A stretch of DNA of 64,000 nt, taken from Desulfomicrobium sp. ZS1. GTDB lineage: Bacteria; Desulfobacterota; Desulfovibrionia; Desulfovibrionales; Desulfomicrobiaceae. Positions 23,876-51,169 of the stretch are shown here, in pieces. Both the position numbers and the translations under genes were made by a program. The notes under the pieces are model-generated. The model searched no databases. It had not been told where the DNA came from and saw only the letters and a program-made list of their open reading frames with translations. Position 1 is the stretch's first letter, and the number at the start of each line of letters is the position of its first letter. The stretch spans positions 372,001-436,000 of the forward strand of contig NZ_CP100351.1 of the NCBI RefSeq assembly GCF_024204645.1. Direction: 5' to 3'.

Positions 23876-23910
23876 AAATCATTCCATCAACAAAGCGAGG
23901 TTGAATATAT

Positions 23911-24192: not shown

Positions 24193-24220
24193 GGCGCCAC
24201 ACCAGGCGCTCTTTTCATTT
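24191..24220 (+). terminator. hairpin with U-tract in the leader of the DUF3150 gene
   Basis: AGGGCGCC pairs with GGCGCTCT across a 6-base loop, followed by TTTTCATTT. It overlaps the stop codon of the previous gene and ends 14 bases before the next ATG. Confidence 0.7.
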
Positions 24221-24233
24221 GAAGGAGAAGAAC

Positions 24234-25238
24234 ATGAACACGCAAACCGACATCAAGGTTTTGGAAAGTCTGCTGGTCCTGCACCTTGAAGTGAACATCT
24301 GGACGGCACGCAAGAAACTGAGCCCCGAGGATTTCGATGGTGCAAAACTGCCCCCTGAGGACTTGGCATCTCTGGGCAGCAAGAGGGTTTGTGATCCCGA
24401 AACCCTGCGAGTTTTTGGGACACTAAAAGCCAGGGCCGTGAGTCTCCTGGACAGACACGGTGTCCGTTTTCTGGGTGGCTGGGCTATTCCTGAAAACCAG
24501 GCGGACAGCATCGTAACCGAACTTGATCAGATCCTGCAGGACTTCAACGCGGCCAAGGAGGATTTTCTGTCACGGTATGATGAATCCGTTCGGGAATGGA
24601 TAGCCAAGCATTCGGGATGGGAACAGATAATCGCCGATTCGACAGTCAGCGCCGACTATGTTCGAAGCCGCATGGGTTTTGTTTGGAAGCTCTTCCGCAT
24701 TGTTCCGCCAGATCCGGTTGACCCGGTTATGGCAGGCCTCAAGGACGAAGTGGCAAGCTTGGGCCAAACCCTGTTCGGGGAGGTGTCCAAAGCGGCCACC
24801 GACGCTTGGCATAAATGCTTTGCCGGAAAGACCGAGATCACGCGCAAGGCTCTTTCTCCCTTGAAGACCATTCATCAGAAACTCTCTGGCCTGAGCTTTG
24901 TTGAGCCACGGGTATCTCCGGTTGCGGATCTCATTCACACCGCGTTCGAACATTTGCCCAAGCGAGGACGGATCGAAGGTGCGAACCTGCTCATGATGCA
25001 AGGGCTTGTCTCGCTGCTGCGAGACGTGGACGCGCTCATTGAGCATGGACAGAAGATCATGGATGGGACGTCTTCCAAGGATGTCCTGTTCCTCTTGGTC
25101 GAAGGACAGACAGACGCGCATGCTCTGGATGCCCAAGGCGATGACAACCTGGACACGGCTATGCCCGAGGACGACATGCCGCCCATCTTTGCGGACATGC
25201 CCATGCAGCCAGTCATGCCCAGTTGCGGGTTGTGGTAG
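24234..25238 (+). CDS. DUF3150 domain protein
   Basis: The 334-residue protein matches the general pattern of DUF3150: an N-terminal VLHLEVNIWTARKKLSPEDF then KRVCDPETLRVFGTLKARA, and WAIPENQADSIVTELDQI. Family members occur beside CobS-like ATPases and VWA proteins in conjugative elements and phages; their activity is unknown. The start at 24234 has AAGGAGAAG upstream. The remainder is alpha-helical with an acidic C-terminus (PEDDMPPIFADMP). It is likely the middle component of the AAA+/DUF3150/VWA set, although a Fic gene separates it from the VWA gene here. Confidence 0.7.
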   Translation: MNTQTDIKVLESLLVLHLEVNIWTARKKLSPEDFDGAKLPPEDLASLGSKRVCDPETLRVFGTLKARAVSLLDRHGVRFLGGWAIPENQADSIVTELDQILQDFNAAKEDFLSRYDESVREWIAKHSGWEQIIADSTVSADYVRSRMGFVWKLFRIVPPDPVDPVMAGLKDEVASLGQTLFGEVSKAATDAWHKCFAGKTEITRKALSPLKTIHQKLSGLSFVEPRVSPVADLIHTAFEHLPKRGRIEGANLLMMQGLVSLLRDVDALIEHGQKIMDGTSSKDVLFLLVEGQTDAHALDAQGDDNLDTAMPEDDMPPIFADMPMQPVMPSCGLW

Positions 25239-25298
25239 GCTTGCTGGACTTGGGCGGTCAACGCGTTTACCGAATTCGAAAGCCAAAAAGGATATGCC

Positions 25299-26045
25299 AT
25301 GCACCATGACGCCTTCGCCGCACTGGACGCACTGAAGTTCAAGCTCGACGCTCATCGTCCCCTTGCGCCGGAACTTGTCCGGAACCTGCGCGAGGACATG
25401 GTGCTGCGGTACACCTACCATTCCAACGCCATCGAAGGGAACACGCTGACCCTCATGGAAGTCAAGGTGATCCTGGAAGAAGGCATGGCCATCGGCGGTA
25501 AATCGCTGCGGCATCACCTCGAAGTCATCAACCATGCCGACGCCATCACGTATCTGGAAAGCCTCGTGAAGGAGAACGTCCCGCTTGATGAGCACATATT
25601 GAAGGAACTGCATCAGCTTGTCCTGCGGGGTATCGATAACGAAGCCGGGCGTTATCGCGGCTGCAACGTCATCATCTCGGGTGCAGGGCATACCCCGCCT
25701 GATCACCTCCAGGTCGGCGAACGCATGCAGAGCTTCTTTGATTGGTACCATGGGGAGGCCCAGAGGCTTCATCCCTTTGAAAGGGCTGCCAGGATGCATG
25801 CCGACCTGGTCATCATCCATCCTTTCCGGGACGGAAACGGCAGGACCTCCAGGCTCGTCATGAACCTGGAACTCATGCGGGCAGGATTTCCGACCGTCAT
25901 CATCCCGGTGGAGGATCGGGTCGCCTATTACGAGAATCTGGACAAGGCGGGGAAGGACATGGATTACGGGCCATTTGTCCAGCATCTTGGCCAGTTGGTC
26001 GAACGAAGTTTCGAGCCATATTGGTATTTGCTCGGCATAGCCTAG
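25299..26045 (+). CDS. Fic-family protein (class II, self-inhibited AMP transferase type)
   Basis: Fic proteins transfer AMP or other nucleotide groups onto target proteins. The active-site motif HPFRDGNGR is at residues 174-182, complete with catalytic H174. An inhibitory helix SNAIEGN (S42, E46, G47) lies N-terminal to it, which makes this a class II enzyme regulated in cis. The length of 248 residues is normal. AAAAAGGA precedes the ATG by 6 bases. It is inserted between the DUF3150 and VWA genes without a hairpin leader of its own, unlike its neighbours. It might modify a partner in this block or act as a toxin-like module. Confidence 0.85.
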   Translation: MHHDAFAALDALKFKLDAHRPLAPELVRNLREDMVLRYTYHSNAIEGNTLTLMEVKVILEEGMAIGGKSLRHHLEVINHADAITYLESLVKENVPLDEHILKELHQLVLRGIDNEAGRYRGCNVIISGAGHTPPDHLQVGERMQSFFDWYHGEAQRLHPFERAARMHADLVIIHPFRDGNGRTSRLVMNLELMRAGFPTVIIPVEDRVAYYENLDKAGKDMDYGPFVQHLGQLVERSFEPYWYLLGIA

Positions 26046-26067
26046 CTGTTAAACACAACAACGAACG

Positions 26068-26104
26068 AAAAGCCCTGGAGTCACAAGCTCCGGGGCTTTT
26101 CGTA
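26068..26104 (+). terminator. hairpin with U-tract in the leader of the VWA gene
   Basis: AAAAGCCCtGGAG pairs with CTCCgGGGCTTTT, followed by CGTATTT. It starts 22 bases after the Fic stop, and the ATG lies 17 bases after the stem. Confidence 0.8.
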
Positions 26105-26117
26105 TTTGGAGAACTTT

Positions 26118-27860
26118 ATGATCGATACACGGGCCGTGATGCGCTCGCTGCCATTGGTGGCAAGCGTGCTCGGCAGAAAATACGGGGTGAAGGTCGAGAT
26201 GGGTGGGGCGGATGCCTACACCGACGGCAAGACCATTCACCTTCCGGCCATGCCAAGCAAGGTGCCGGACACTTTGCTGGCAATGGTCAGGGGATTCTTG
26301 GATCACGAGGCAGGGCATGTCCGGGAAACGGATTTTACTGCCCTGCAGGAGGCCAGGCTCTCTCCCATAGAAATGCACGTTTGGAACACCCTGGAAGATT
26401 GGCGGGTCGAACACAGACTCGCGGCCTTATTCCCAGGGTGCCGCCATAACTTTGATTGGCTGATTGCGCACCTCTTCGGCTCGAACGACTGGGACGAACC
26501 AACTGAGCCTGCGGCCAATATCCTCAACTGGCTGCTGCTTGAAGTCCGGTCCTGGGATGTCCTGTCTTTGTCCAGGCAAAGAGGCAGCTTGGCGAGACAG
26601 GTGGACAGAGACTTTCCGGGGATAAGGGCGAAGATTGAGCGCGTGCTGAAGCTGGTCCGGACCAAGTGCGTGTCTACCCATGACGCCATCAAATACGCCC
26701 GCGAAATTGTGCGCGCTTTGGATCGGTACGCCAATCATGTGAGCAAGCCGGAAGCATCTGGTCAGGCCGGGCCTGAAGAGCAAAATGCTCCTTCGGGTCC
26801 ATGTGCATCAAGTGAAGCCAAAAGTGGAGACATGCAAAATAACGACGAAAAACACACGGAAATGGGGAGGGAGTCATCTCGTCATACGGACATTGAGAGC
26901 GAGTCAGTACAGTCCTGCTCACCTCCATCTAGTCATCCCCCATGTCCCATGGGTACTGACGGTCGCGGTGCTGATAGCCAGGCCCGAAATGAGCTGCAGC
27001 GACTCATTCGGGCAGGGGAGGATGAGCTTCCGCCAAACCTTGGAAACATCCTGGCTAGCGTTTTAAAAGAGTCTTCCCGCGATTCGGTGCAAAGTTCGAT
27101 CACGGTGGCTGTCCAGACATCCAAAAATGCCGGTCCACTTTCAGGTGACGATATTAAGGAAGCCAGACAAGCAAGCACCGCACTTCGAACCAGGCTTGGC
27201 GGGCTATTGCAGACCACGGTCCTCTCCCGGGTAGCTGGTGGCCGAAGGGGGCGCCTTGATACCGGGCAGCTTCATCGTTTGGCTGTGTCCGATCCGCGGG
27301 TGTTTCGCACCAAGTCCGAACGGACCGGGATTGATACCGCCGTTCACATCCTGCTTGATTGCTCTGGATCCATGGTGCGCAGGATTCATCTGGCCTGTCA
27401 GGCTTGCTACGCCGTGGCCTCCGCCCTGGAGGCTTCCAGGATCAATGTCGCCGTTTCCGCGTTTCCGGGCACGCAGACTCCAGATGGCTCGTACTCAACG
27501 ATTGCCCCCGTCATACGCCATGGACAGAAGGTGACCCCCAATCTGGACCTGTCTCCTGCAGGTGGCACGCCTATGGGGGAAGCCCTCTGGTGGGTGATGC
27601 AGGAGATGCTGCCGCTGGCCGAAAAGAGAAAGCTCGTGCTCATAGTCACCGACGGGGATCCGGATTCCGTGGACTGCGCCATTCAGGCAATCGAGCAGGG
27701 GTTGAGGGCAGGTTTTGAAATCTACGGCATCGGGATCACGAGTCAGGCCATCATGGGTCTGTTGCCGGGCCGAAGCGTGGTCGTGAACGCCATGCCCGAA
27801 CTGGCTCCCGCCATGTTCACTCTGCTTGAGAACGCAATTCTGATCAGGCGTGAAGCTTGA
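26118..27860 (+). CDS. CobT-like VWA-domain protein with HEXXH motif
   Basis: This 580-residue protein ends in a von Willebrand A domain with a full MIDAS: DCSGS near 414, GGTPMGEAL near 484 and TDGDPDS near 511. The N-terminal part has DHEAGHVRE (H63-E-x-x-H67), followed by LEDWRVEH (90s), resembling a zincin metal site with a downstream acidic ligand. Between them is a low-complexity polar linker (about 205-290). CobT-like VWA proteins partner MoxR/CobS ATPases, here encoded at 22530. GGAGA precedes the ATG at 26118. Metal-peptidase activity is a hypothesis from the motif only. Confidence 0.8.
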   Translation: MIDTRAVMRSLPLVASVLGRKYGVKVEMGGADAYTDGKTIHLPAMPSKVPDTLLAMVRGFLDHEAGHVRETDFTALQEARLSPIEMHVWNTLEDWRVEHRLAALFPGCRHNFDWLIAHLFGSNDWDEPTEPAANILNWLLLEVRSWDVLSLSRQRGSLARQVDRDFPGIRAKIERVLKLVRTKCVSTHDAIKYAREIVRALDRYANHVSKPEASGQAGPEEQNAPSGPCASSEAKSGDMQNNDEKHTEMGRESSRHTDIESESVQSCSPPSSHPPCPMGTDGRGADSQARNELQRLIRAGEDELPPNLGNILASVLKESSRDSVQSSITVAVQTSKNAGPLSGDDIKEARQASTALRTRLGGLLQTTVLSRVAGGRRGRLDTGQLHRLAVSDPRVFRTKSERTGIDTAVHILLDCSGSMVRRIHLACQACYAVASALEASRINVAVSAFPGTQTPDGSYSTIAPVIRHGQKVTPNLDLSPAGGTPMGEALWWVMQEMLPLAEKRKLVLIVTDGDPDSVDCAIQAIEQGLRAGFEIYGIGITSQAIMGLLPGRSVVVNAMPELAPAMFTLLENAILIRREA

Positions 27861-28021
27861 TAGGCCTGGAGCATGAGAGCTCCTTATATCATCAAAATTT
27901 TAATCCGGGAGGGAGCATATGGTGATTGTTCATCGTAATGACATGGGGAAATAGCAATTTGAAATCAATTACAGGAATTGCTGCAGCCTCGCGTGCAGTA
28001 AATTCGAGAGAGGAAAAAATC

Positions 28022-28096
28022 ATGATGAACTGGGGATCACTTATCGCTATTGCGCTGACCGTGCTTCAAATCGTGAAGGAGAACATTGATGACTGA
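28022..28096 (+). CDS. possible 24-residue membrane peptide
   Basis: A 25-codon frame beginning MMNWGSLIAIALTVLQIVKE has one hydrophobic helix. A purine-rich GAGAGAGG lies upstream of its ATG. Its last codons overlap the start of the next gene (ATGACTGA), as in translational coupling. Short membrane peptides of this shape can be phage or plasmid accessory products. Evidence is limited to frame, leader and overlap. Confidence 0.35.
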   Translation: MMNWGSLIAIALTVLQIVKENIDD

Positions 28097-28310
28097 TGAA
28101 ATTATGCCTAGGGAAGACAGAAGTGGAAAAGTGTGTGCATTTCTTGGCGGATGCATCGCCGGGATAGCTGGTTTGTTTGCGGTGGCGATTGTGTCGGGGG
28201 AGATTACAAGCCCAGAGGCGTTATCTGATTCTTTGGAAATAGATGAACATGATCCCGATGATCCTTTGAAGGTGCCTGGGTGTGGGCAATCCATCAACTC
28301 GGAGACTTGA
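28089..28310 (+). CDS. hypothetical small single-pass membrane protein
   Basis: The 73-residue product has a hydrophobic segment at about 15-38 (VCAFLGGCIAGIAGLFAVAI). An acidic tail follows (EIDEHDPDDPLKVPG). AAGGAGA lies 6 bases before the ATG at 28089 and inside the preceding small frame, so translation is probably coupled. A strong hairpin follows immediately. No homologue is recognised. The pair sits at the boundary between the recombination block and the sensory cargo. Confidence 0.5.
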   Translation: MTDEIMPREDRSGKVCAFLGGCIAGIAGLFAVAIVSGEITSPEALSDSLEIDEHDPDDPLKVPGCGQSINSET

Positions 28311-28315
28311 AATTA

Positions 28316-28353
28316 AAGCGGTCAGTTACTTGGCACTGAGTAACTGACCGCTT
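28316..28353 (+). terminator. 15-bp perfect hairpin terminator
   Basis: AAGCGGTCAGTTACT pairs fully with AGTAACTGACCGCTT across an 8-base loop, 6 bases after the previous stop. The following T tract is weak. Confidence 0.65.
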
Positions 28354-28836
28354 GCGTGTTCTAAATCAAAATATACTTCATGGTATGATTTCTCTTAGCG
28401 TTTTCATGTAATTTTTACCTGAACTAAGAGTAGTGTCAGGCCGTATGGGGTAAAGGTCACGGGTCAATCAGCGTTTTTTTACATGAAAATTGATATATTC
28501 ATGTAATTTTACATATGCGATATTTTTGTCAGTTTTTAAATCAGAAATGCATTGTGGGCATGAACTTTAAATCGTTCAGATGGCGGAAAGGACATCACTG
28601 CAAATAGTTATCATTCTCTTGAGAAAGGGTCACCATACTCTTTTAACTCTCTCAGAAAAATGATTTCACGCAGAGCATGACATGACCAGTGTACGCGGGA
28701 ATGACACATGGGATCATTCACGACGTATCGCAGTGACGGTGACGTCCGAAAATGGGGGTTGAAAAAACTTGGCTACTCAAACAGGAGCCCTTTCAAATCG
28801 CGTCAGCTTGATTTATTACTTGTTCGAAAAATAGCA
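28354..28836. other. intergenic region without recognised features
   Basis: The region lies between convergent genes and shows no open frame with coding character, no tRNA and no repeat that I can identify. Confidence 0.5.
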
Positions 28837-30570
28837 TCAAAATTCTGTTGAGGAATTGCCTCCGTGCGGGAGCTGCAATGTGAATGACACGGATGTTCCT
28901 TGGCCCGGCACGCTTTCGACAAAAATCCGACCGCCATGATTCTCGACGAACTCCTTGCACAGCAGTAGCCCCAGTCCGGTTCCCTTCTCGCCTTCAGTGC
29001 CGCATTGCCGCTTCGAGTTGTCGATGACAAATATTCTCGGCAACGCCTGTTGTTCTATGCCTATCCCATTGTCCCTGACCACGACCGTGGCTGCGTCACC
29101 TTCCGCCGAAGCCGATACGGATACGGTGCCTCCTCGATGGGAAAATTTGATGGCGTTGAAAAGAAGGTTGCGAATGACCGTGTTGATCATGGATTCGTCC
29201 GCCAAAACCATCAGTTTCGATGGGATATCGGACACAAGATGAATGTTTTTCTTCTCACAAGCATGTTTAGCCACCTCTATACATTCCTGCACCATAATGG
29301 AAAGAACGCATGGTTTTAGAGAACAGTCCAAGCCACCTTGACTGAGTCGAGCCCATTGCAGCAAGTCGTCCAACAGCGCCAATAAATTTTTTATACTCCT
29401 GTGCAATTCCTTCATCACGCGAGCAAGCTCTTCTTCAGTAAAAGAATCCTGCTCTGTTCCGACAATTTGAGTCAAGCTTTGTATGGCGCACAATGGCGAG
29501 CGTAAATCATGAGCTATAATCGAGAAAAGCTTGTCCTTGTCGTCATTAGCCTTGTGCAACAGCTCAATAATTTTCTGACGCTCTTCCTCCATTCTCTTGC
29601 GTTCGGAAATATCACGTATAATGTGTTGGAAGTGGGGCTTCTCGTTAATATGAATGACGCTCACACTCGACTCGATCGGAAATTTGTCCCCATCTTTGCG
29701 AATATGTACCCCGAAATACATATATCCACTTTTAAGACTTGAATCAGACTGAATAGAATCAGAAATTTTAGAATCATCATTATCACGGAGTTCTCTGATG
29801 GTCATTGTCAGCAGTTCATCCCGAGAATATCCATACGCTCTGGCCGCCTCGATGTTGGCCTCGGCGATCCGTCCTTCTTCATCGATAAGCAAGATGATGT
29901 CGTGTGCATGTTGCACCAAGAATTCAAAGCGCTCCAAGATGTCTTTGCACTGTTGTTCGATTTCGAATTTTTTCTGAAAAAAAATCGCCTGCTGGTGTTT
30001 CCTAGACACCACGAACAGCAAACCGAAAAACACGAGCATCCCGGAAATAACAATCCATCTTTCCCGCTTGTGTCCCTGGATTATCTTCTCCGTTTGTATG
30101 CCTACCAGTTCCTTAAGTCGACTTTGATAAATCAGAAGTTCATTTTCAATGACGGCTTTGTCTTGGACGTCGTGGATAATGGACAGGAGCAATGACGAGC
30201 CTGAAGAAGTGAGGAAAGGCGAACTGTAGACCTCGACAGTCCGAACCTCGCCACTGGCCAGACGATGGGGGAAAATAAAATAACTACGACTTTCGTCCCT
30301 TGCCAGTTGATATTCCCTTTCAACATCTTTCGGAGACAGCATATTAATCTCCTGGATGCGCATGCGCTGCAATTCATCAACGCTATAACCATAAAACAAG
30401 CTCGCAGCATTATTAGCCTTGACGATGTTCCCCGTATTTGGATCTATTATAAAAGCTACTACTTTGACATCTTTAAAATTTACAGACATCTCAGCAAAAC
30501 TGATGTCTTGAAATAGTATGCTTAACATTAAAAAAAATACTGAAACGAAAAATACAAAAATTCTTTTCAT
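28837..30570 (-). CDS. membrane PAS-domain sensor histidine kinase
   Basis: This 577-residue kinase begins with a signal-like membrane segment (IFVFFVSVFFLMLSILF). A PAS domain follows (VVAFIIDPNTGNIVKANNAA), then a second membrane segment (WIVISGMLVFFGLLFVV) and another PAS domain (IILLIDEEGRIAEANIEAAR). The HisKA box is SIIAHDLRSPLCAI (H354), followed by HATPase motifs (NLLFNAIKFS, DNGIGIE, KGTGLGLLL). The ATG at 30570 gives the membrane start; the frame also opens with GTG at 30594. It is the last gene of a minus-strand signalling cluster with no adjacent full output regulator. Its signal is unknown. Confidence 0.85.
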   Translation of the reverse strand: MKRIFVFFVSVFFLMLSILFQDISFAEMSVNFKDVKVVAFIIDPNTGNIVKANNAASLFYGYSVDELQRMRIQEINMLSPKDVEREYQLARDESRSYFIFPHRLASGEVRTVEVYSSPFLTSSGSSLLLSIIHDVQDKAVIENELLIYQSRLKELVGIQTEKIIQGHKRERWIVISGMLVFFGLLFVVSRKHQQAIFFQKKFEIEQQCKDILERFEFLVQHAHDIILLIDEEGRIAEANIEAARAYGYSRDELLTMTIRELRDNDDSKISDSIQSDSSLKSGYMYFGVHIRKDGDKFPIESSVSVIHINEKPHFQHIIRDISERKRMEEERQKIIELLHKANDDKDKLFSIIAHDLRSPLCAIQSLTQIVGTEQDSFTEEELARVMKELHRSIKNLLALLDDLLQWARLSQGGLDCSLKPCVLSIMVQECIEVAKHACEKKNIHLVSDIPSKLMVLADESMINTVIRNLLFNAIKFSHRGGTVSVSASAEGDAATVVVRDNGIGIEQQALPRIFVIDNSKRQCGTEGEKGTGLGLLLCKEFVENHGGRIFVESVPGQGTSVSFTLQLPHGGNSSTEF

Positions 30571-30665
30571 CAAAACCGACCACTCCTGTATCACAAGCGA
30601 TCACTAAGGGATGAACTTAGTCAGATTACCCCGATTCTGTTCTTGCATACTCACTTATCCAAAAA

Positions 30666-32066
30666 TCAGGACACCCTCTGCACCCTTGGCGGTGGACAGA
30701 GGTCTTGCTTGTCGCCAGCGACGAATACTTGATTCCGTCCTTTGGTTTTGGCTTCATAAAGTGCTGCGTCAGCGCGTCGCATCAAATCTTCCACAGTGTT
30801 CAATCCGTCGCTCAAAAAAGCTACGCCAAGACTGACCGTGAACTGGATGACGGCATTCTCCGTTTTGACCATCAGTTCAGAAATAGCTCGTCTCACCCGC
30901 TCAGCGATGATTTCAGCCTCCCCCCGTTCCACCTCCGTGAGCACGATTCCGAATTCCTCTCCGCCAAGACGACCAAAGATATCTGTCGAACGAAGAATGG
31001 CGCGGCAGGTTTCAACCATCGCTTTCAAAACTTCGTCACCGGAGCTATGACCCCAAGTATCGTTGATGAGCTTGAAAGCGTCGACGTCAAGCATCAGGAA
31101 GGCCAGCATGGTTCCTTGCCTGCGACAGCGATGCAATTCGTGCTCCGCACGGGACAGGAACTCCCGGCGGTTGCTGATGGACGTCAGATGGTCCGTCGTC
31201 GCCAGTATGTACAGTTCCAGTTCGAGTTGCTTGCGTTTGGTGACGTTTTCAAGTTGGGTTATGAAATATGATGGTTGGCTCTTTTCATCGCGGACTAGGG
31301 AAACGCTGAGAAGGACCCAGATGCTTTTTCCGGATCTGGTCACAAATCGTTTTTCAACCTGGTAGGATTTAACATGTCCGAGGAGGAGGCGCTCTTTCTG
31401 CCGTGCACCAAGCTCCGTATCCTCGGGCAGGACGAACTCGCACATGTTCTTGCCGATCAACTCGTGCTCGCCAAATTCTAGCATAGCGCACAGGGCGTGA
31501 TTGGCCTTTAGCCAGGCCTCGTCCAGGCCAACCAACGCCATGCCGTTGGCCGCGTATTCAAAAGCGCTAGCGAAACGTTCCTCGCTTTCGCGCAACACTG
31601 CTTCGGTCTTGCGGCGCATTTCTACTTCATGTTGGGCCGTGGCGTGCATGCGGGCGTAATCACGCAGGCGCATATGCGCCTCGGTCACATCCTGCATAGT
31701 CATCAGCACTGCGTTTTGTCTGGACGTTTTTTCCTTGAAGGCACGCGCCACCGTGTGCTGCAAGCGCTCCATGCCACCGGGTAGACTGCTGGGGATTATG
31801 CTGCCATGCAGTCGCGCGGAAAAAATGACAGGCGGACCACCCTGAAAAATCAGTTCAAATCTACTGGTGAATTTGGGTTCCAGAAGGTGGGGAAAAAATT
31901 CAGCCAAGTTGCGACCTACGATATTTGTTGCTGCGATCTTGGTCCATGACTCAATGCATCGATTCCAGAAACGAATCACATAGGTTTCGTCAAAGATGCA
32001 TACCCCCAGCGGCATGGCATGTAGCAGTGTGCAGTAACTGTCGTAGTCGAAGTTCGCGTCATTCAT
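30666..32066 (-). CDS. PAS-PAS-GGDEF diguanylate cyclase
   Basis: The protein of 466 residues has two PAS domains (about 10-125 and 160-280, the second ending FITQLENVTKRKQLE). A GGDEF domain follows, with active motif GGEEF at 368-372 and an RSTD inhibitory site (359-362) exactly five residues before it. It should make cyclic di-GMP with product inhibition. No membrane segment is present, so sensing is cytoplasmic. The gene is between a kinase gene and cheA in the same direction, suggesting that the chemosensory cluster is tied to c-di-GMP output. Confidence 0.88.
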   Translation of the reverse strand: MNDANFDYDSYCTLLHAMPLGVCIFDETYVIRFWNRCIESWTKIAATNIVGRNLAEFFPHLLEPKFTSRFELIFQGGPPVIFSARLHGSIIPSSLPGGMERLQHTVARAFKEKTSRQNAVLMTMQDVTEAHMRLRDYARMHATAQHEVEMRRKTEAVLRESEERFASAFEYAANGMALVGLDEAWLKANHALCAMLEFGEHELIGKNMCEFVLPEDTELGARQKERLLLGHVKSYQVEKRFVTRSGKSIWVLLSVSLVRDEKSQPSYFITQLENVTKRKQLELELYILATTDHLTSISNRREFLSRAEHELHRCRRQGTMLAFLMLDVDAFKLINDTWGHSSGDEVLKAMVETCRAILRSTDIFGRLGGEEFGIVLTEVERGEAEIIAERVRRAISELMVKTENAVIQFTVSLGVAFLSDGLNTVEDLMRRADAALYEAKTKGRNQVFVAGDKQDLCPPPRVQRVS

Positions 32067-32133
32067 GGTTCATTTCCGATGCTGAGCCACAGGGCTTGAT
32101 GTTCTTTTTGAGCTGATCGCCAGCCGCCGATGC

Positions 32134-33750
32134 CTAGCGCAGACAAAGACGAATTATATCCGGAACGTCAAGCACCAGTGCCAAACTGCCATCCTCCGTC
32201 ACGGCGCTGCCGAGGATGCCATCCAACCGGCCCAGAATCCGGCTGATCTGTTTCAGCACGATCTGCCGGTTCCCGACGATCCGGTCCACAATGAGCCCAA
32301 GGCGCATATCTCCGGCGCGGACAACCAGTACTGGAGCCAGCCCGGGTGCAGGGGCATCCATGTTGAAAAAGGTTCTTAAGCAGACCAATGGCAACATTCC
32401 CTCTCGCACGCACAATGTGCCGCGTCCAAGCCGCAAAGTCACGGATTCCCGGCGTATCTCCAAGCATTCTTCTATGTTGGCGATCTGCAGGAAAAATGAG
32501 TCATCGCCAATCATGATTTGCAGGGAATCAAGAATGGCGAGGGCCAAAGGCAGGCGGATGAACACAGTGGTGCCCTCTCCAGGAGTGGAGGAAAGGGAAA
32601 TATCTCCTCGCAAGGCCCGGACTTCCTCTCGGGCTGCGTCCATTCCTACGCCTCGTCCGGAATAGGCGCTTACGCATGTCGCGGTTGACAGTCCGGGCAT
32701 GAAGGCCAAATCAAGCAGGGAATCATCCTGCCCCTGAATGTGGTCAAGAGGGATGCCTCTGGCTAATGCCTGCTGGTGTAACTTTTCCCGGTTCACGCCC
32801 CGACCGTCGTCCCGAATCACAATCTCCACATCGGCTCCCACCTGTCGTGCCTCAACGCGAATCTGACCGGTTCGGGGCTTGCCGAGAGCGTTGCGCTCAT
32901 CCGGAGTCTCGATTCCATGGTCGACGGCATTGCGCAGCACATGGGTGAGCGGAGCATGCAGTCGCTCCATGGCCGTCTTGTCCAGTTCAGTGTCCTCTCC
33001 AGTCAACGTGAGTGACACTTGCTTGCCGGTCTGCGCAGCCATATCACGAACGAGACGGCGAATTTTGGCGAACATGGGCTTTAAAGCGACCAAACGCAGG
33101 GCCATGATCTGGTCTCGTAAGCAGCTTAAATTGCGTTCCAGTTCTTCGGCCAGAGCATCCAAGTCGCGATGCCGGCGAGACAGAGCGGTCAAGCGAGCCT
33201 GGAAAGCGGCCAGCTCTCCCAACTGGTCCACCAATATGTCGAGTTTGGACGCTGGAATTGTCAGTTGCACCAGTTGCAAACCCGGCTCGGGACCACCTGC
33301 TGGTCGCACGGACTTTGCGCTGTTTTCCATGCAGGCAACGTTCGTGCTCTCCCTACTTTCAGCGTCCTGCTCTGTGGCCAAGAATCGCTCCAATAGCATA
33401 AGGCTCTCGGAAGCATCCTTGTCTTCAGCCTCAAGGGGCCGCGAAATCATCCGACGCAAGCAATCGAAGACTTGCAGGAGGGCGTCGATCAAAATCCGCG
33501 ACAAGTCGATGCGACCGGAACGAACCAGATGCAACACATCTTCCGCCTGATGAGCGAGATCCGCAATCTTGACAAAACCCATTGTCGCCGCATCGGCTTT
33601 GATAGAGTGTGCAGCTCGGAAAATAGCATCTATCGATGACGCGGATTTGTCCTGTTCCAAAGACAGTACGTGCTGTTCGATGTTTGTGAGCTGTTCTACG
33701 CAGCTGATGGTGAATGCGTTCAGCAGTTCAACGTCCAGACTCATGGTCAT
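32134..33750 (-). CDS. cheA: CheA-family chemotaxis histidine kinase
   Basis: CheA passes phosphate from receptor arrays to receivers. The 538-residue protein has an N-terminal Hpt domain with H48 (FRAAHSIKADAATMGF). The dimerisation/ATPase core follows (PLTHVLRNAVDHGIE, VIRDDGRGVN, SGRGVGMDAAREEV), and the C-terminal CheW-like domain includes GLIVDRIVGNRQIVLKQI. The P2 docking domain is short or absent, and total length is below that of classical CheA. It lies immediately downstream of cheC and a lone receiver gene. No separate cheW, cheR or cheB is present in the window. Confidence 0.9.
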   Translation of the reverse strand: MTMSLDVELLNAFTISCVEQLTNIEQHVLSLEQDKSASSIDAIFRAAHSIKADAATMGFVKIADLAHQAEDVLHLVRSGRIDLSRILIDALLQVFDCLRRMISRPLEAEDKDASESLMLLERFLATEQDAESRESTNVACMENSAKSVRPAGGPEPGLQLVQLTIPASKLDILVDQLGELAAFQARLTALSRRHRDLDALAEELERNLSCLRDQIMALRLVALKPMFAKIRRLVRDMAAQTGKQVSLTLTGEDTELDKTAMERLHAPLTHVLRNAVDHGIETPDERNALGKPRTGQIRVEARQVGADVEIVIRDDGRGVNREKLHQQALARGIPLDHIQGQDDSLLDLAFMPGLSTATCVSAYSGRGVGMDAAREEVRALRGDISLSSTPGEGTTVFIRLPLALAILDSLQIMIGDDSFFLQIANIEECLEIRRESVTLRLGRGTLCVREGMLPLVCLRTFFNMDAPAPGLAPVLVVRAGDMRLGLIVDRIVGNRQIVLKQISRILGRLDGILGSAVTEDGSLALVLDVPDIIRLCLR

Positions 33751-33772
33751 TCCGTTCCGTCCGTGTCCACGT

Positions 33773-34393
33773 TCAGATCATACCGAGTTTGGCGTCGATT
33801 TTTTCGAGGAGTGCTTGCAGCGTTGTGGAATTGAAGAAAATAAAGACCTCGCCTTCCACGAGATGCTCGGTGATAAGGAAATTGGCGCGGATGAAAAGGA
33901 TGATTCTGTCCTCTCTATCGCCAGTGGGCAGAACCTTAATGATGTCATCCTCAAAATAATCGGGCGGCATGTAGTCGATGTGTTCGGAGAGCATGTTGGC
34001 GATGGAACCCATGACTCCGTTCAGAACGATATTGCCCACTTCCTGCAGTGTCCCTATGCGGAGCGAGTCCATGTCCAGGCAGAAGTCTTCCTGGCCGACG
34101 AGCAAAGACACCAGATTGGAGGCGCTTTGAGATGAAAAGACAAGCGCCGTCACGCCTTCAAAGGCACCCCCGAAAGCAATATTGATGGCCACGCCTTTGC
34201 CCCAATCACAGGTGCTGGGTTGGGAAGCGAGTTCGGTGGGGGAGAGAACCAAAATTTCCGGAACCTGCAGCGTGACGTGGGAATTGACCATCTGATTGAG
34301 CACGCCCGCAGCGTTGCCAACCCCGATGTTGATTAATTCACGGAGCACGTCGTATTGGTACTCGCTGATGTCGATGGAGGATGAATTTCTCAT
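33773..34393 (-). CDS. cheC: CheC-type chemotaxis phosphatase
   Basis: CheC/CheX proteins dephosphorylate CheY-P. The 206-residue protein carries two copies of the active-site ExxN motif. The first is in RELINIGVGNAAGVLNQMV, with a proline about 20 residues later. The second is in TLQEVGNIVLNGVMGSIANM. Both indicate a CheC with two potential sites. Its start is 4 bases past the receiver gene stop, so the two are co-transcribed and probably form a phosphatase/substrate pair. Confidence 0.85.
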   Translation of the reverse strand: MRNSSSIDISEYQYDVLRELINIGVGNAAGVLNQMVNSHVTLQVPEILVLSPTELASQPSTCDWGKGVAINIAFGGAFEGVTALVFSSQSASNLVSLLVGQEDFCLDMDSLRIGTLQEVGNIVLNGVMGSIANMLSEHIDYMPPDYFEDDIIKVLPTGDREDRIILFIRANFLITEHLVEGEVFIFFNSTTLQALLEKIDAKLGMI

Positions 34394-34397
34394 AACG

Positions 34398-34760
34398 TCA
34401 GTTCTTGGAAATCAATTGATTCAGGGCATCAAGAACTTCCTGCTCTTTTGGGGGCTTGGAGAGGATTTTGCGGGCACCAAGCGCAAAACAACGCTCCCTG
34501 GTAGTTTCTTGAATGTCTGCTGTTATAACCACAATATCCGTTTCCAGACCTTCCTGGCTCGCAGCCTCCAGTACTTCCAGTCCGGAAAGTTCAGGCATAT
34601 TCAAATCCAGTAAAGCCAAATCCGGTTTATGACTGCGCAGTATGTCGAGCGCTTCCAGTCCATTCTTTGCTTCAATGAAGTCATACTGCTGAGACTTCAC
34701 AATTTTTGATAAAACCAAACGTTGAAATAATGAATCATCCGCAATAAGTATTTTGGCCAC
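34398..34760 (-). CDS. single-domain response regulator (CheY-like)
   Basis: A stand-alone receiver of 120 residues: AKILIADDS (acidic pair), LALLDLNMPEL (phosphoacceptor D), VVITAD (T) and KILSKPPKEQE (K). A GTG at 34760 has GGAG six bases upstream and gives the usual start; the frame opens four codons earlier with TTG. It is the probable phosphate acceptor of the CheA encoded downstream and the target of the CheC. There is no output domain, so it must act by protein contact. Confidence 0.88.
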   Translation of the reverse strand: MAKILIADDSLFQRLVLSKIVKSQQYDFIEAKNGLEALDILRSHKPDLALLDLNMPELSGLEVLEAASQEGLETDIVVITADIQETTRERCFALGARKILSKPPKEQEVLDALNQLISKN

Positions 34761-34851
34761 GCTTATCTCCAATAATGTAAATATTGATAATTAATTTTAA
34801 ATATAAATATACGTGTGTATTTTTAAAATTAATATTTTATTATTAAAAAAA

Positions 34852-34897
34852 TTCGACTTTCGGGGTTAGCCATTAGCAGCTAACCCCGAAAGTCAAG
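34852..34897 (-). repeat. 46-bp mini-element derived from the IS4-family IS, also a terminator
   Basis: Read on the minus strand it joins the left end of the IS at 6026 (CTTGACTTTCGGGGTT) to its last 30 bases (AGCTGCTAATGG then CTAACCCCGAAAGTCGAA). The result is a near-perfect hairpin followed by seven Ts, 14 bases downstream of the receptor stop codon. It therefore should terminate transcription between the receptor and receiver genes. No target duplication is evident. Confidence 0.75.
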
Positions 34898-34910
34898 TAT
34901 CGATATTCAT

Positions 34911-36914
34911 TTAGTTCAATCGAAAACGATGCACTAAGCTTTCTAATTGAATGGATAAGGCAGATAAATTTTGAGCGCCGACATTTACTTCTTTACTAGC
35001 CGTAGTCATATTCATAGTGGTCGAGTGGACTTCGGCGATATCTTGTGCAATAGATTGTGAAACACTAGCGCTTTCAGTCACGAGGATATTGGCATTTTGA
35101 ACGCCAAGAGTTGCTTCTGCTATGTTTTGAACAATTTCACGCGTCGTAACTGCCTGTTCATTTATAGATGTTGATATTGTTTCAATGATCTCTCCTACAT
35201 CTCCTATGACCTTGGTGATGTCCTCAACTACGTGTTGCGCAGAATTTGTAGAAGCTTGAATCGCCGTGATTCTTTGGCGAATATGGTCGGCGGAATCAGT
35301 GGTCTGTCTTGCCAGTTCCTTGATCTCATTGGCCACAACGGCGAATCCCTTGCCAGCCTCTCCGGCCCGAGCAGCTTCAATCGTTGCATTGAGGGCGAGT
35401 AAGTTGGTTTGCGAAGAAATTGCGGTGATAGTTTCCGTGACCTTGCCTATGTCTTGAGCAGTCACAACCAGTTGCTGCATTATTTCACTCATGCCTTTGG
35501 CTTGGTCCGTGGCGTTAGTGCTGGTGGAATGGGCTTTAACTGAAAAGCCAGCTATATCGCTGATGGTGGAGCTCATTTCCTCTGCCGCTGAAGCCACCGT
35601 GGTAAGATTAGCAGATGTCTGTTCCATACTAGCTGCCACTGAAGAAGTATTGGCGCTCATCTCCTCTGCAGCTGCAGATACAGTGGAGGATCGATTGGTC
35701 GTGTCCTCGGCCCCGTCGGAAACCTGCGCGGAAAGAGATGCCATTTGCGTGCTGGTATTGGCAAGAGATGCGGCGTTAACTTGAATTTCGACCATCATCT
35801 CCTTCAGGTGCTGGACAAAATTATTGAAATATTTTGCTAGCATGCCCAGTTCATCTTTTGCTTCAGGCAGACGGACAGTCAGGTCACCATCTCCTTCAGC
35901 AATATCTTTTAGAGATGCGACAACCATATTGATGCGTTTGACGATATTGTAGGAAAAGAAACTCGTGACTACAATGGCGCACACCGTCAGGACTGCCATA
36001 AGGCTGAGACTGATGGTTAGGGTGCGAGTCATATTGGCCTGTTCTGCTTCCAGACGTTTACTCAGCTTGGTGCTTTCATCTGTGATGACTTGTTCTATGT
36101 CGTCAATTTTTAAACTCATCTGTCGAAAAAATTTTGAGCCAGGAATCTCGAACCCCCCATTTTGCGCCTTCAGCAGCAAGACGCGTAACATGCTTTCCAC
36201 TTCCTGCCATGGGTCGGATTTTGGCAGATTGCCAAGTTTCTCTGTGGAATCTTGACTCAGGACTAGTGCTGGAGAGCTTAAGCCCACATCAATCTCGCTT
36301 TTCAGACGGATGAGCAGTTCAAACTGATCGTTTGTCAAAGGCGCATTCAGGGTCAACAAACTTGAGCCATTGGCGCGCAGCTGTCCAGCACTCTCTTTGG
36401 CAACTTCAAGAATCATAAGTGATCCGAGGAGCTTCCCTAGAGCACGCGCGGTCGGGCCATTGGGAATCAGTCCTTGCATTTCAATAAGTTCTTGAATCAA
36501 CTCCGTGTATTCGGCAATTTGGCGAGGGCGTAGTGTAGGCTGCATCTGAGAGTAATCCGCACGCAACTGTTTCAGACGTGTAGCAATTTTGACATGTTTT
36601 AGTTTTTCGCTGTCTGGCAAAACTGCCTGTGATAGATTCTGTACAAACGCAGGCAGAGCAGAATCAGTTTTCTGCCGGAATTCTTGGACCTGAATAAACT
36701 CTGATCCGCCTGTCAAAAATAATGCAGTTCCGCCGCGTTCACGTTGAAGATGCCCGATTAAATTCGAAGTTGCTTGGAAGAGATAAATATTCTTGCCCAT
36801 TGCGTTGAATATAGAATGGTCTTTAATTACTTGAGATAGATTTACGCCAATAATAATGAAGAATGCGAGTAGCGGGACAAGTCCTATTAACAAAATTTTA
36901 TGCATAATTTTCAT
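34911..36914 (-). CDS. methyl-accepting chemotaxis protein with NIT sensor domain
   Basis: The receptor of 667 residues has an N-terminal membrane segment ([20 protein letters not shown]). A large extracytoplasmic NIT domain follows, recognised by [19 protein letters not shown] domains are linked to nitrate and nitrite sensing. A second membrane segment near 315-335, a HAMP linker and a cytoplasmic signalling hairpin complete it, with the tip around [26 protein letters not shown] precedes the ATG at 36914; the frame is open to 36971. No CheR-binding pentapeptide is seen at the C-terminus. It is the receptor of the adjacent CheA/CheC system, and its ligand class matches the nitrite reductase cargo downstream. 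Confidence 0.9.
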
Positions 36915-37028
36915 ATTTTTTCCTTTATAAGAATCTATTGAATGTGCATATATACAAGTAATATTCGCCATTATTTCTTTTTAAAAACGAAGTATATTGG
37001 TAAGTTTTTCTCTATGAGAATTTGGATT

Positions 37029-38498
37029 TCAAAGTTGAACATCGGTTTCACTTTTTTTACATACTGTCGCAAGCGCATGCTTCAAGTCGTCCAGATGGAC
37101 CGGCTTGCTGATATAGTGATCCATGCCGACTGCGAGAAATTTTTCCCGGTCACCAGCCATAGCAAATGAGGTCATGGCAATAATGGGAATGTCAGCTTTT
37201 GCTCCGACTCCCGAGTTCCGGATTATTTTCGTAGCCTCAAATCCGTCCATGACCGGCATTTGGATGTCCATGAGGATACAATCGAAATCCTCTGATTTCC
37301 ATAGTTCAATTGCTTCGAGTCCGTTCTCTGCCGTGGATAAGCGCACTCCTGATTTTTCAAACAGCTTCTCCATGAAAAACTGGCTGGAAAGATCGTCTTC
37401 GACCAGCAGGACGTTGGCTGGTGTCAGGTTTTTTAGTGCCTCGTTCGGCTGTACGTTTTTGAATTGGGTAGCCAATTCAGAGCGAGCAAAGGGGAGGATT
37501 ACATACGCAGATGTTCCTTCCTCGGGCAATGTGTCAATAATAATATGTCCGCCCATGAGGGCGACTAGGCGTTTGACAATAGCTAGGCCAAGTCCAGCTC
37601 CTTGGTTAGCTCTGGTGTAAGTTGAATCGACCTGCACAAATGGCGTGAAAAGATCCTTGAGCCTGTCCTCCGGGATGCCGATACCAGTGTCATGGACACA
37701 GAAAGCGATTCGGATTTCGTCGGATCTCGGTGAGTTGATCTGAAAAATTTCAAGGGTGATTGTGCCTTGGCCGGTGAATTTGAAGGCGTTGCCTACTAGG
37801 TTGAAAAGGATCTGGCGAATCCTTGCCTCATCCCCAGTGAGGATCTCCGGTGTGCTTGGGTCAATGCGGCATATCAGGGGGACTTTTTTATCTTTGTAAA
37901 TGACATTAAATAGTTCCGTGACAGACTCTAAAAGATCGCTGACGAGAAACCCTTTTTGTTCGAACTCAAGTCTTCCCGTCTCAATTTTGGAGATGTCTAG
38001 GATGTCAGTGAGTAGCCTTGTCAGCCGGTTCGTCGAGCGGACGGCCATGTAAATATATTCTTTCTGCTCCTGATTCAGATCGGTAGTCTGTAGGAGCTGC
38101 ATCATGCCGTGGATGCCGTTAAGCGGAGTGCGGATCTCATGGCTCATGTTTGCCAAAAATTCGGATTTGGTCTTGGTAGCGGCTTCCGCCCTTTCCTTTT
38201 CTTTGATTAGAGCCTGTTCAGTATTTTTTTGAGCATTAATAAGTTCAGTATAGACAATCAAACCGCCTATGGTTCCATCTTCTTCAAACCATGGACGACA
38301 TTCCCAGCGGGTCCAATCAACTCTTCCGTCCTGGCGAGTAAATGGATCATCTTCTTCGGAGATGACCTCACCACTCAAAACTCTTTGGTGAACATCTTTC
38401 CACTTTTGAGGTAATTCTGGAAAAACTTCGTAATGATTTTTTCCAATTATATCTTTTTTTTTCAACTTTATAATCTCGAATATATTTATCGCTAACAT
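37029..38498 (-). CDS. hybrid histidine kinase, kinase-receiver part (frameshifted from its PAS N-terminus)
   Basis: This part contains the end of a PAS domain ([20 protein letters not shown]). A HisKA box ([16 protein letters not shown]), HATPase motifs ([34 protein letters not shown]) and a C-terminal receiver (LLVEDDLSS ... [13 protein letters not shown] ... KPV) follow. Its frame opens inside the PAS domain, and no ribosome-binding site is seen at 38498. The N-terminal half is in another frame upstream, separated by an indel in a nine-base A tract (38454-38462). If one base were gained or lost, a single hybrid kinase of about 650 residues would result. A real pseudogene, transcript slippage and a sequencing error are all possible. 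Confidence 0.75.
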
Positions 38499-38982
38499 AT
38501 ATATAGTTCATATTCTTGTCATGAACAGCTATCGCGCTTCTGCTGTGTTCAATAATATATTTCATCAATTCATGAGCATGATCAAGTTTTTTTTGAATAT
38601 TTATTTTTTTTGTTATATCTCTGCATATACACAGAATAAATTTTTTATTTTCAATAAAAGAGGCACTAGATGATATTTCTACATAAAAAATAGATTTATC
38701 TTTTCTTATATGTTTCGTCGTGAAAAAATCACCTTCAGAAGTGACCTTTTCAATCATATTAAGAGTCGAAATTTTGTCTAATCCCGCCTCCCAATCGCAG
38801 ACATGGAGATTTTTTACTTCTTCTTGGGTATAGCCTAGCATATTTGCAAATTTTGAATTTGCTTCGTAAACATTGCCATATTCATCCAGTATGACAATTC
38901 CATCCCTATGTTGTTCTAAAAGAACTCTGTAAAATAATATTTCGCGTTTGCTTGAATTTTGATCAGATAATTTTTTGTCCAT
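38368..38982 (-). pseudogene. PAS-domain N-terminus of the frameshifted hybrid kinase
   Basis: The first 180 residues hold a complete PAS domain with PAC (GIVILDEYGNVYEANSKFAN ... FILCICRDITKK) and the start of a second PAS ([19 protein letters not shown]). After IRDYK the frame shifts and the tail [12 protein letters not shown] is out of register. The other frame at the same place continues the PAS domain ([17 protein letters not shown]). The product would be a sensor fragment without kinase. The start is ATG 38982 with a weak leader. Confidence 0.7.
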
Positions 38983-39034
38983 ACGTACAATTTTTCCTGA
39001 CTTTTAAATTTCAAAATCTTGAAATAAAATTTTT

Positions 39035-40363
39035 GGTCCTTCCGGAAACTCTGTGGGTAACGTGTTCAAACTGACCTCGGATACAGGTCGAGTCCACCAC
39101 AGAAAAAATAGATCGCCGTCTTGAAATGATCCTTGTTGCTGTACCCGCACGCCTTTCGCTTGATGCTCATGATCTTGCTGTTTAATCCTTCGGCGACGCC
39201 GTTGGTGATCCGGTGGCGGCAGAAAGTCAGGATATTATCAAGATGCCGCGAAAGTAACTGTCCCACCCGCTTCATTGGTTCCAAGCCGGAACGATCAATC
39301 CATTTTATCCAGCGCTTGAAGAATCTCCGCCCCCATCCAGGAGACATGTAGCCCCACAATGACTGCAAGTTCTCTCTCATGGCCCACGCTTTGGCCACCT
39401 TGAGAGTGCTGGCCTTGAGGACGTCAAATGTCGGCTGATGCTTGGCAGGCAAGTTCTCGGGGCGAAACAGCCAAAGGTACTTGGTCCCTTTGAGGGTTTC
39501 GTCGCCCTGAGCCATCAGGGCCTTATGTTCTTGCTTGCGCACTTTATCCACGGCTTCATTCACGTGTTTCATGACATGAAATCTGTCGTGGACGATTTTG
39601 GCTCCGGCATCCGGCACATGCGCCATGGTCGCCGTGAAATATGGCTCCCACATATCCATCGCGATGGCCCGTATGGATTCCAGTTGGCCTGGCGAGAGCC
39701 TGCGGTAATATTCCTCCAGGCTGCTCTTCTTCCGCTCTTCGGAAACATGCTCGACAGTGCTGCGCATAAGGTCGCAGACGATGGTCATGTAGGAGTGCCC
39801 TTTGCGGAATGCTTTTTCGTCCACTCCGAGATAATGAATAGGACGGGCCTCCTTGCGTGAAAGGCCTCGTCGCACAGCTCGCTCCATTACTCCCCAAACC
39901 TCATCCCATGTGAGTTTCAGCAAGCGCCGAGAGCCTTCCACTGTCACGCACTCTGTGAGCACATCAATGATCCAGCGTTCCATGAGCAAGGTGAAGCGCG
40001 ACCGTGGTTCAGCCCAGGGCACAAGCACCTGGTGCACTCCATGTTCCGGGCATTCCACTCGCGGAACTCGGGCATGAAGTAACGTCTTGAACTGACATGT
40101 ATCCAGGTGACGCCAGACACGCTCGCCTACATGGTCTCGGCAGGGCAGAAGCTTGCCGCATTCTGGGCAGGGCCAGCGCTCCCCTGGGCCATGATCTAGC
40201 CAAATATCAACACTGTTCTCGGCTACTTTCAGATCAACCTTATCAACAAACCAAGGGGCTTTGCCTCCAAGAATCTGCGCGTAAAGTTCAGTGTCTCTCA
40301 TCGGCGTCCTCCGTGAGAAGACTCCTAACCAAGTCATTTACCTATAGCAATTCTGGAAGGACT
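39035..40363 (-). mobile_element. ISL3-family insertion sequence
   Basis: Terminal repeats are GGTCCTTCCGGAAACTC at the left and, on the minus strand from the right, AGTCCTTCCAGAATTGC. The element is about 1.33 kb with a single transposase gene. No 8-bp target duplication is evident, so one end may have recombined. A related solo end with a decayed transposase start occurs at 43850-44075. Confidence 0.75.
39066..40301 (-). CDS. ISL3-family transposase
   Basis: This 411-residue transposase has the N-terminal zinc-finger typical of ISL3 (WPCPECGKLLPCRDH ... CPEHG). An HTH region follows, then a DDE core with YLGVDEKAFRKGH (D), AIAMDMWEPY (D) and ITNGVAEGLNSKIMSIKRKA (E). The ATG at 40301 has CGGAGGA upstream and is chosen over 40337. 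It appears full-length. It is GC-richer than its immediate surroundings and separates the sensory cluster from the PII/DUF1538 region. Confidence 0.9.
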   Translation of the reverse strand: MRDTELYAQILGGKAPWFVDKVDLKVAENSVDIWLDHGPGERWPCPECGKLLPCRDHVGERVWRHLDTCQFKTLLHARVPRVECPEHGVHQVLVPWAEPRSRFTLLMERWIIDVLTECVTVEGSRRLLKLTWDEVWGVMERAVRRGLSRKEARPIHYLGVDEKAFRKGHSYMTIVCDLMRSTVEHVSEERKKSSLEEYYRRLSPGQLESIRAIAMDMWEPYFTATMAHVPDAGAKIVHDRFHVMKHVNEAVDKVRKQEHKALMAQGDETLKGTKYLWLFRPENLPAKHQPTFDVLKASTLKVAKAWAMRENLQSLWGYMSPGWGRRFFKRWIKWIDRSGLEPMKRVGQLLSRHLDNILTFCRHRITNGVAEGLNSKIMSIKRKACGYSNKDHFKTAIYFFCGGLDLYPRSV

Positions 40364-43849: not shown

Positions 43850-44075
43850 GATCTTGCAGGTGGTTGTCTGGGGCTGAGATTGGAGCAAAATACACACTAT
43901 TTTCGTTTACTTTAAGACCCTCGTGGACTTTAAAATAACACGGAGCTTAGTTTATATTCCAGATTCCAAGAGCCTTCGTGAAAATTTCCGAGAGATGCGT
44001 ATCTTTCATCGGCGTCATCCGCGAGAAGTCAAATCATTTACCCACAGAGTTTCCGGAAGGACCTTAATTTTTGAG
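43850..44075 (-). pseudogene. decayed N-terminal end of an ISL3-family IS
   Basis: The outer end TTTCCGGAAGGACC (44060-44073) matches the IS terminus at 39035. On the minus strand a frame starts MKDTHLSEIFTKALGIWNIN and, after a stop, continues KVHEGLKVNENSVYF. This parallels MRDTELYAQILG ... VDLKVAENSVDI of the intact transposase. It is a separate, older copy. Confidence 0.6.
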
Positions 44076-44177
44076 TCGAAATATTCGATAGGATGGCTAC
44101 TGTAAATTCCTCTTTCAGGCGAGGAGGGACTCAGCTTAAGGCCAAGTGGCTATTTGGCATATGTTGCCGCTGGCGTT

Positions 44178-44345
44178 TCAGAAGCACGGAATCACGACGG
44201 CCAATACACATGAGATGAGAGCGAACGCCCAGTCGTAGCCCAGAACTCCGATCAGGAGGGCCCCCTGTATTGGGCCAGACAGTTTTCGATATCGAAGATG
44301 GGCCGGAAGACGTCCATGGCCGAACCGCTTCGGCTTGTACTAACC
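44178..44345 (-). pseudogene. C-terminal remnant of a major facilitator transporter
   Basis: The minus strand reads SAMDVFRPIFDIEN in one frame, then GPIQGALLIGVLGYDWAFAL followed by ISCVLAVVIPCF and a stop in another. This is the usual last two helices of MFS exporters (FDIGN..GP...G.L....GY...F). One frameshift and loss of the upstream part mark it as dead. Confidence 0.5.
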
Positions 44346-44446
44346 GTTGGTGCTGATGATGTATTTATTTTTCATCCTCAGAGAATGAGTTTCTATCAAT
44401 TCTCGTACAATACCAAGCGCTACTGATGAATGATTTTTTATTTAAT

Positions 44447-45127
44447 CTAAAAATTAGTTATATAATTTAATATCGATGACATTTGCTTATTGATTTTTTC
44501 ATAGTCTTTAAATGTTGCAGATTTTATAATTGATTTTGATTGAATAAAATTGTCTGCAACAAGTTCTTCATTGCAGTTTGCAATCATTGAATCAATGGTT
44601 TCTGGAGTTGTTTCAAGGTGAAATTGTAACCCAATTATGTTTTTTCCATACTGAAAGGCTTGTTGTTCGCAAGCTACGCTTTGTGCCAATTGCACGGCTC
44701 CTTCGGGCAAGGTGAACGTTTCGCCGTGCCAATGAAAAACTTTAAGCGTATCTGGAAACTGAAAATCGGTATTCGGCACCTTGGTTATGTCAAACCAGCC
44801 GATTTCTTTTTGGGAATTTTTGTAAATTTCAGCCCCGAGCGCACTTGCCAGCAATTGGGCTCCTAAACAAATTCCAAGCATAGGAATCCCTGCACTGATT
44901 GCTTCTCGTAAAAATCTTTTTTCTTCAACAAGCCAAGGAAACTCCAATTCGTCATGGACACTCATGGGACCGCCCATGATTATAATAAGGTCTATTTTAG
45001 ACAAAGCAGGCAGATCATTCGACTCGTAAAAACGCGTATATGACACGTTCGCGTTGCGCTGGTTTAACCATTTATCGATACTTCCAATGCCTTCGAAAGA
45101 AACATGTTGCAGTATGTGGACATTCAT
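44447..45127 (-). CDS. class I glutamine amidotransferase (GMP-synthase-like)
   Basis: The protein belongs to the GMP synthase-type amidotransferase domain family. The nucleophile elbow is GICLGAQLLA (catalytic C), preceded by IIIMGGPMSVHDE, and the histidine-glutamate pair is in LQFHLETTPE. The family alignment suggests the start at ATG 45127 (MNVHILQHV), giving 226 residues, although the frame opens at 45199 directly against a hairpin. Neither start has a strong leader. Stand-alone members often use small amine substrates; this one is unassigned. It may be co-oriented with the cupin gene upstream. Confidence 0.8.
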   Translation of the reverse strand: MNVHILQHVSFEGIGSIDKWLNQRNANVSYTRFYESNDLPALSKIDLIIIMGGPMSVHDELEFPWLVEEKRFLREAISAGIPMLGICLGAQLLASALGAEIYKNSQKEIGWFDITKVPNTDFQFPDTLKVFHWHGETFTLPEGAVQLAQSVACEQQAFQYGKNIIGLQFHLETTPETIDSMIANCNEELVADNFIQSKSIIKSATFKDYEKINKQMSSILNYITNF

Positions 45128-45200
45128 GAGGAAGCGCCTCTGATATGATTGCAGATTATTCAACTTGTCGATTGAGATCTTCACATGTTCAATTAGCATT

Positions 45201-45229
45201 CAGGGTCTTGGTCTCTAACCAAGACCCTG
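45201..45229 (-). terminator. 12-bp perfect hairpin between cupin and amidotransferase genes
   Basis: CAGGGTCTTGGT pairs completely with ACCAAGACCCTG across a 5-base loop. There is no long T tract on the minus strand. It may terminate the cupin transcript or shape the amidotransferase leader. Confidence 0.6.
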
Positions 45230-45310
45230 AGCAAATACTTTCGATTCATAAGTCAACAGCCGACATAAGCGACCGGCATGATCCTATTCCATCCCGCCCT
45301 TCGTCTTTGT

Positions 45311-45625: not shown

Positions 45626-45835
45626 GGTGCTACTCCGTGTGGTTATTGCTGATCAAAATCATCATGCACATAGGTAATGCGAAAAATACGATTGTACATT
45701 TTTTTGTTTGCTTTCAGGTCAGTGTCAATCAGCGTCCAATAAATTTCTACGAGTTGACTTTGTGGTCAGTCTGCCTTGATGGTTGAGGCACATTTTTCTG
45801 CCCACTATTTGAGTTGCTTCAATTGTTCAAAAAAA

Positions 45836-51167: not shown

Positions 51168-51169
51168 TG

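Follow-up and report, generated by a model that had tools for sequence, protein, structure and literature searches.

A hairpin of fused IS4-type ends behind a chemotaxis receptor gene is a candidate intrinsic terminator

In the 64,000-nucleotide stretch of DNA analyzed here (the window, in which all coordinates without a genome label are given), a 46-bp hairpin separates a chemotaxis receptor gene from a receiver–cheX–cheA cluster. Where does this hairpin come from, and does it end the receptor transcript? The receptor is a methyl-accepting chemotaxis protein of 686 aa (NIT, HAMP, and MCPsignal domains), encoded on the minus strand at 34911–36971. Beyond the hairpin, on the same strand, lie genes for a receiver-domain protein (34398–34760), a CheX/CheC-like phosphatase (33773–34393), and a CheA-like kinase with Hpt, HATPase_c, and CheW domain matches (32134–33750). 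For the receiver, our own reading favours GTG at 34760, preceded by GGAG, as the likely start over the TTG at 34772 given in the list of open reading frames. The first-pass annotation had named the phosphatase gene cheC; Pfam CheC does match the protein, but so does Pfam CheX.

The hairpin occupies positions 34852–34897 and is read on the minus strand from 34897 to 34852. In this direction, the receptor stop codon TAA (34913–34911) is followed by 13 nt, the 46-mer, and, directly 3' of it, seven Ts (34851–34845, minus strand, by direct reading). The receptor stop lies 150 bp from the probable receiver start, and this interval is A/T-rich except for the hairpin. The predicted fold has 19 bp in its stem and 6 nt in its loop (−33.3 kcal/mol, z −8.37), and none of 200 dinucleotide shuffles folded equally well; a consensus scan counts 20 pairs in the stem. 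The stem spans 34853–34896, its base is weak (U-A and U-G pairs), and a single A lies between it and the T7 tract. The earlier description of a hairpin with seven Ts exactly behind the receptor thus stands for the stem, the T run, and its place 13 nt from the stop, with the correction that one A intervenes. The T run is present on the receptor strand only. Rfam returned two matches only, both far under their gathering scores (24.7 of 186 and 20.1 of 100), and a plasmid search gave zero matches.

The arms of the hairpin match the ends of an insertion sequence (IS), a full-length copy of which (1545 bp) lies on the plus strand at 6026–7570, with 16-bp terminal inverted repeats CTCGACTTTCGGGGTT and the 7-bp duplication TTTTTAA. 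Its transposase (6165–7556, plus strand) matches NCBIfam transpos_IS4_4 (NF049925) with 538.7 bits against a cut-off of 250 (E 1e-161). With an IS4 transposase, inverted ends, and a target duplication, the element belongs to the IS4 family, as first annotated. The 3.87-Mb genome carries three full copies, 100% identical across 1546 aligned bases and flanked by the 7-bp duplications TTTTTAA, TAAAAAA, and TCAATAA; a copy in genome G002 is flanked by TTAATCTA (all read by eye). The target duplication of this element is therefore 7–8 bp long, and its target sites are A/T-rich. The transposase stop codon falls within a right-end stem, GTTAGC/GCTAAC (window 7534–7560), which is exact in six of the seven right ends read (G001, G002, G009, and G013) and has a G-U pair in the seventh. 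G013 also holds two same-direction copies (C2, L145 514–3465), the first without part of its interior; their outer flanks share TAAGTCT, as in a composite or rearranged IS pair.

Within the 46-mer, 32 of 32 bp are identical to the IS right end (IS 1513–1544), and the 13-mer GACTTTCGGGGTT occurs exactly in both arms. The whole genome contains eight exact sites of this 13-mer, namely the six ends of the three full copies and the two hairpin arms. Allowing one mismatch raises the count to 13, these eight included, and the other five include two relics of the left end of related elements (C1:850686 and C1:1240545). Both parental inverted repeats are kept in the hairpin, with the 13-bp arms exact and a single substitution close to each outer end (CTTGAC for CTCGAC and GTCGAA for GTCGAG). 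On these matches, an origin of the hairpin from the IS is nearly certain. The earlier claim of two fused IS ends is borne out as to both ends; a plain fusion does not account for the two changed bases, nor for 3 nt of the expected product that are missing.

The most likely route would be a deletion between copies of the 9-bp direct repeat GGTTGTTAG, found at the left end (6038–6046, IS positions 13–21) and at the right end (7534–7542, IS positions 1509–1517), both on the plus strand. Such a deletion predicts a 49-mer, and the observed 46-mer corresponds to this product minus one GTT and with the two outer substitutions. The 3-nt loss demands an additional step and counts against our explanation. 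It is also the point at which a different origin has to be weighed, in which the IS left end was never present at this locus and the GTTAGC/GCTAAC stem of a right-end fragment was extended to a perfect palindrome by template switching during replication. The left arm is an exact mirror of the right one across GACTTTCGGGGTTAGC and lacks the GTT that a fusion of ends would leave, and a solo right-end relic is known at G000 C1:1068537. Outside the mirrored part, however, the left arm has CTTGAC, five of six bases of the IS end CTCGAC (by hand calculation, at least two of the three outer bases would match by chance in 10 of 64 cases), and a simpler route is available through the 9-bp repeat that both IS ends carry. 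We therefore consider template switching unlikely.

The hairpin had also been described as a minimal non-autonomous derivative, and further 46-bp copies had been proposed as a check. A search with fixed spacing and up to three mismatches found it in 2 of 101 genomes, and a search with exact arms and variable spacing in 2 of 348 genomes of the order; both recovered a single locus, in this genome and in G013, and copies more decayed than these settings would escape them. At least 90% completeness and at most 5% contamination characterize 246 of the 348 genomes. With 151 bp around the hairpin as query, 7 of the 101 genomes gave matches, all of the same genus. Besides this genome and G013 these are G001, G002, G004, G008, and G009, where the match covers 22–51 bases only; the four such loci read, in G001, G002, G004, and G009, are IS right ends. 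A miniature element (MITE) moved to this locus in trans by the IS transposase would fit the two nearly intact inverted ends, and the three identical full copies could provide the enzyme. Against such mobility stand the single locus across both genome sets, the altered outermost right base, and the flanks, where no 7-bp target duplication was found (left ATCGATA, right TTTTTTT, 2 of 7 bases matching). The mobile derivative is thus very improbable. The search for further copies ended at the one locus shared with G013, and a lack of other copies, seen within these searches, had been named beforehand as one of two results that would refute the first interpretation.

The absence of a target duplication also counts against our own explanation, in which the IS lost its interior in place. 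Recombination between IS copies or an adjacent deletion can leave an element without one, as is documented (PMC11708052), and decay can have the same effect; any of the three can explain the flanks of this hairpin.

The G013 hairpin lies at the same locus and is equal in 46 of 46 bases. It belongs to a shared block (28374–39034 against G013 C3:6675–17338) of 99.2% identity, with 82 mismatches over an alignment of 10,665. At this identity, about 0.35 differences are expected per 46 bp, and the identity of the hairpin is therefore no sign of selection. We considered the G013 copy as evolutionary conservation and rejected it on the same ground; since the whole 10.7-kb block is shared, the presence of the hairpin in G013 is uninformative on selection. 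So far, nothing supports the earlier suggestion that the hairpin was put to use, in the sense of its being recruited by selection.

Identity to G013 varies strongly along the window, since two genes to the right at 79% (59065–61130) and 77% (61355–62308) coexist with intermediate stretches (for example, 90% at 20493–25247) and with 13 kb at 98% (44064–57097 against G013 C2:15612–28647), another likely transferred segment. From this pattern, the block at 28374–39034 was probably transferred recently. It contains kinases, a diguanylate cyclase, CheA, CheX, the receiver, and the receptor, and in this genome it stops at an ISL3-family element (transposase 39066–40337). To its left, 24102–27860 holds adjacent DUF3150 and CobT/VWA genes with relatives in G013 C2 and C9 (85–90% for the DUF3150 stretch, 73–77% for the CobT stretch), which gives the impression of belonging to a mobile or defence-like module.

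The surroundings of the hairpin in relatives bear on how receptor and cluster came together. The G010 relative of the receptor (72% over 573 aa) has other genes behind it, and relatives of cheX and cheA (74 and 53%) are on a separate contig, which ends inside cheX. In G004, relatives of receiver, cheX, and cheA (58, 71, and 50%) are on a different contig from the receptor (56%), next to genes that we read as small heat-shock-like (L054). CheX matches in the order number 45, from 41 of 345 genomes. Among the 30 of these loci that we read, 25 have a receiver match, and the receptor stands upstream only in this genome and G013; the reading extended some 1 kb beyond the receiver, so more distant receptors would be missed. 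We also sought an empty site through relatives of receptor, receiver, and CheX, and none of those seen shares the receptor–receiver junction. The hairpin thus sits at a joint found nowhere else among the loci read.

This joint raises the possibility of a neutral scar, a hairpin left where an IS-linked rearrangement joined the receptor to receiver–cheX–cheA, with no selection on it. Such a scar may still end some transcripts; it differs from our reading in its origin and in denying a use. The flanks without a duplication agree with it, the more so as IS recombination and adjacent deletion are documented causes of such flanks, and so do the separate positions of receptor and cluster in G010 and G004, the two best-matching relatives, and the restriction of the junction to this genome and G013. 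On the other side, an old target duplication could have decayed, and the survey covered 30 of 45 loci with its 1-kb reach, five of them without a receiver match. We give this alternative almost, though not quite, an even chance.

Whichever way the hairpin arose, its anatomy is terminator-like, as had been proposed. It combines the stable stem-loop with a U tract downstream of the stem as transcribed (an A, then T7), which makes it a textbook candidate for an intrinsic terminator of the receptor strand only. By a d'Aubenton-Carafa-type score, no minus-strand candidate in 28000–39100 ranks above it (7.4), the next being a site inside a kinase gene (4.7) and one at 0.2; the best plus-strand score there is −3.0. 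This score alone is not decisive, because among 12 dinucleotide shuffles of the block 28374–39034 two contained a site above 0 and one a site above 7.4 (36.4). The consensus scan found four terminator-like sites in 2.8 kb, against 2.7 expected from shuffles, the hairpin with its 20 pairs and three others with 5–7. The weight of the case falls on the place of the hairpin, its orientation, and the length of its stem, and with them a role of the hairpin as terminator is likely. Two receptor relatives without this hairpin are followed by other terminator-like hairpins, scoring 21.3 about 80 nt on in G010 and 6.8 about 23 nt on in G004.

The intact IS does not provide such a signal. Of the six ends of the three full copies with their flanks, none scored above −37.8, and one gave no candidate. 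The predicted 49-mer, placed in silico at the three IS sites of this genome and scored in the better direction, gave 16.7, 22.2, and −9.4. It is terminator-like at two of three sites, a small sample, since the targets of the IS are A/T-rich. Collapse and target preference can therefore, as far as sequence and scores tell, make a terminator without later adaptation.

Taken together, our best explanation is that the hairpin is an IS remnant formed by interior loss and now serves as the terminator behind the receptor gene, an account that we regard as probable as a whole. We infer the order of events and the termination as follows. A copy of the IS4-type element resident in this genome would have lost its interior, most likely between the GGTTGTTAG repeats, and the resulting 49-mer would then have lost one GTT and gained the two outer substitutions. 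Fusion of the inverted ends would create the strong stem that the intact IS does not have, and the preference for A/T-rich targets would tend to let one side of the remnant open with a T run. In the receptor transcript, a 19-bp stem with A-U7 behind it would dislodge RNA polymerase 3' of the receptor; receiver, cheX, and cheA would then need their own promoter or read-through. A promoter-like site at 34827–34800 (minus strand) is not above chance, with three such sites found in the region against 4.8 expected. More speculatively, an A/T-targeting IS with direct repeats inside its inverted ends may work as a terminator factory, each collapse leaving a strong, oriented terminator; here, one collapse would lie at the joint between receptor and receiver–cheX–cheA, so that a single event would have assembled the cluster and, through partial termination, fixed the receptor-to-kinase ratio. 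We think this extension doubtful.

What is of interest here is that a predicted terminator would arise in a single step, through fusion of IS ends in an A/T-rich target. This is a short, checkable route from a selfish element to a predicted gene-regulatory part, one in which later adaptation is unnecessary, seen here at a single locus. With a few search terms in the open-licence literature, we found no published case in which an IS reduced to its fused ends acts as a terminator. From the passages of the papers cited below, IS-derived terminators used by cellular genes are already known, and so are terminators made from repeats.

Type I MITEs resemble the hairpin in arising by internal deletion of a parent with both terminal inverted repeats retained; in the same excerpt they move and leave target duplications (PMC6382973), whereas for the hairpin neither was found and no interior remains. 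The pneumococcal SPRITE repeats form an 18-bp duplex with a U-rich tract near gene 3' ends and are suggested to be co-opted terminators; they are a repeated family, for which the section consulted names no IS parent (PMC3049150), while the present case is one locus with a known parent. DNA uptake sequence terminators of Neisseria and Pasteurellaceae, as outlined in part of PMC1852404, likewise form their stem from two inverted copies of a short repeat. Those repeats are uptake signals, generally present in 1,000 or more copies per genome; here the copies are IS ends at one locus. A further parallel is with mobile attenuators, in which cellular genes have come to be regulated by exapted 3' terminators of an IS or a prophage (Naville and Gautheret 2010, PMC2965389, in the portion drawn on here). 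In both cases, an IS-derived hairpin and T tract adjoin a cellular gene. In mobile attenuators, the IS owns its terminator and lands upstream of the gene; here, by contrast, the intact IS ends score as non-terminators, and their fusion makes a predicted terminator behind the gene.
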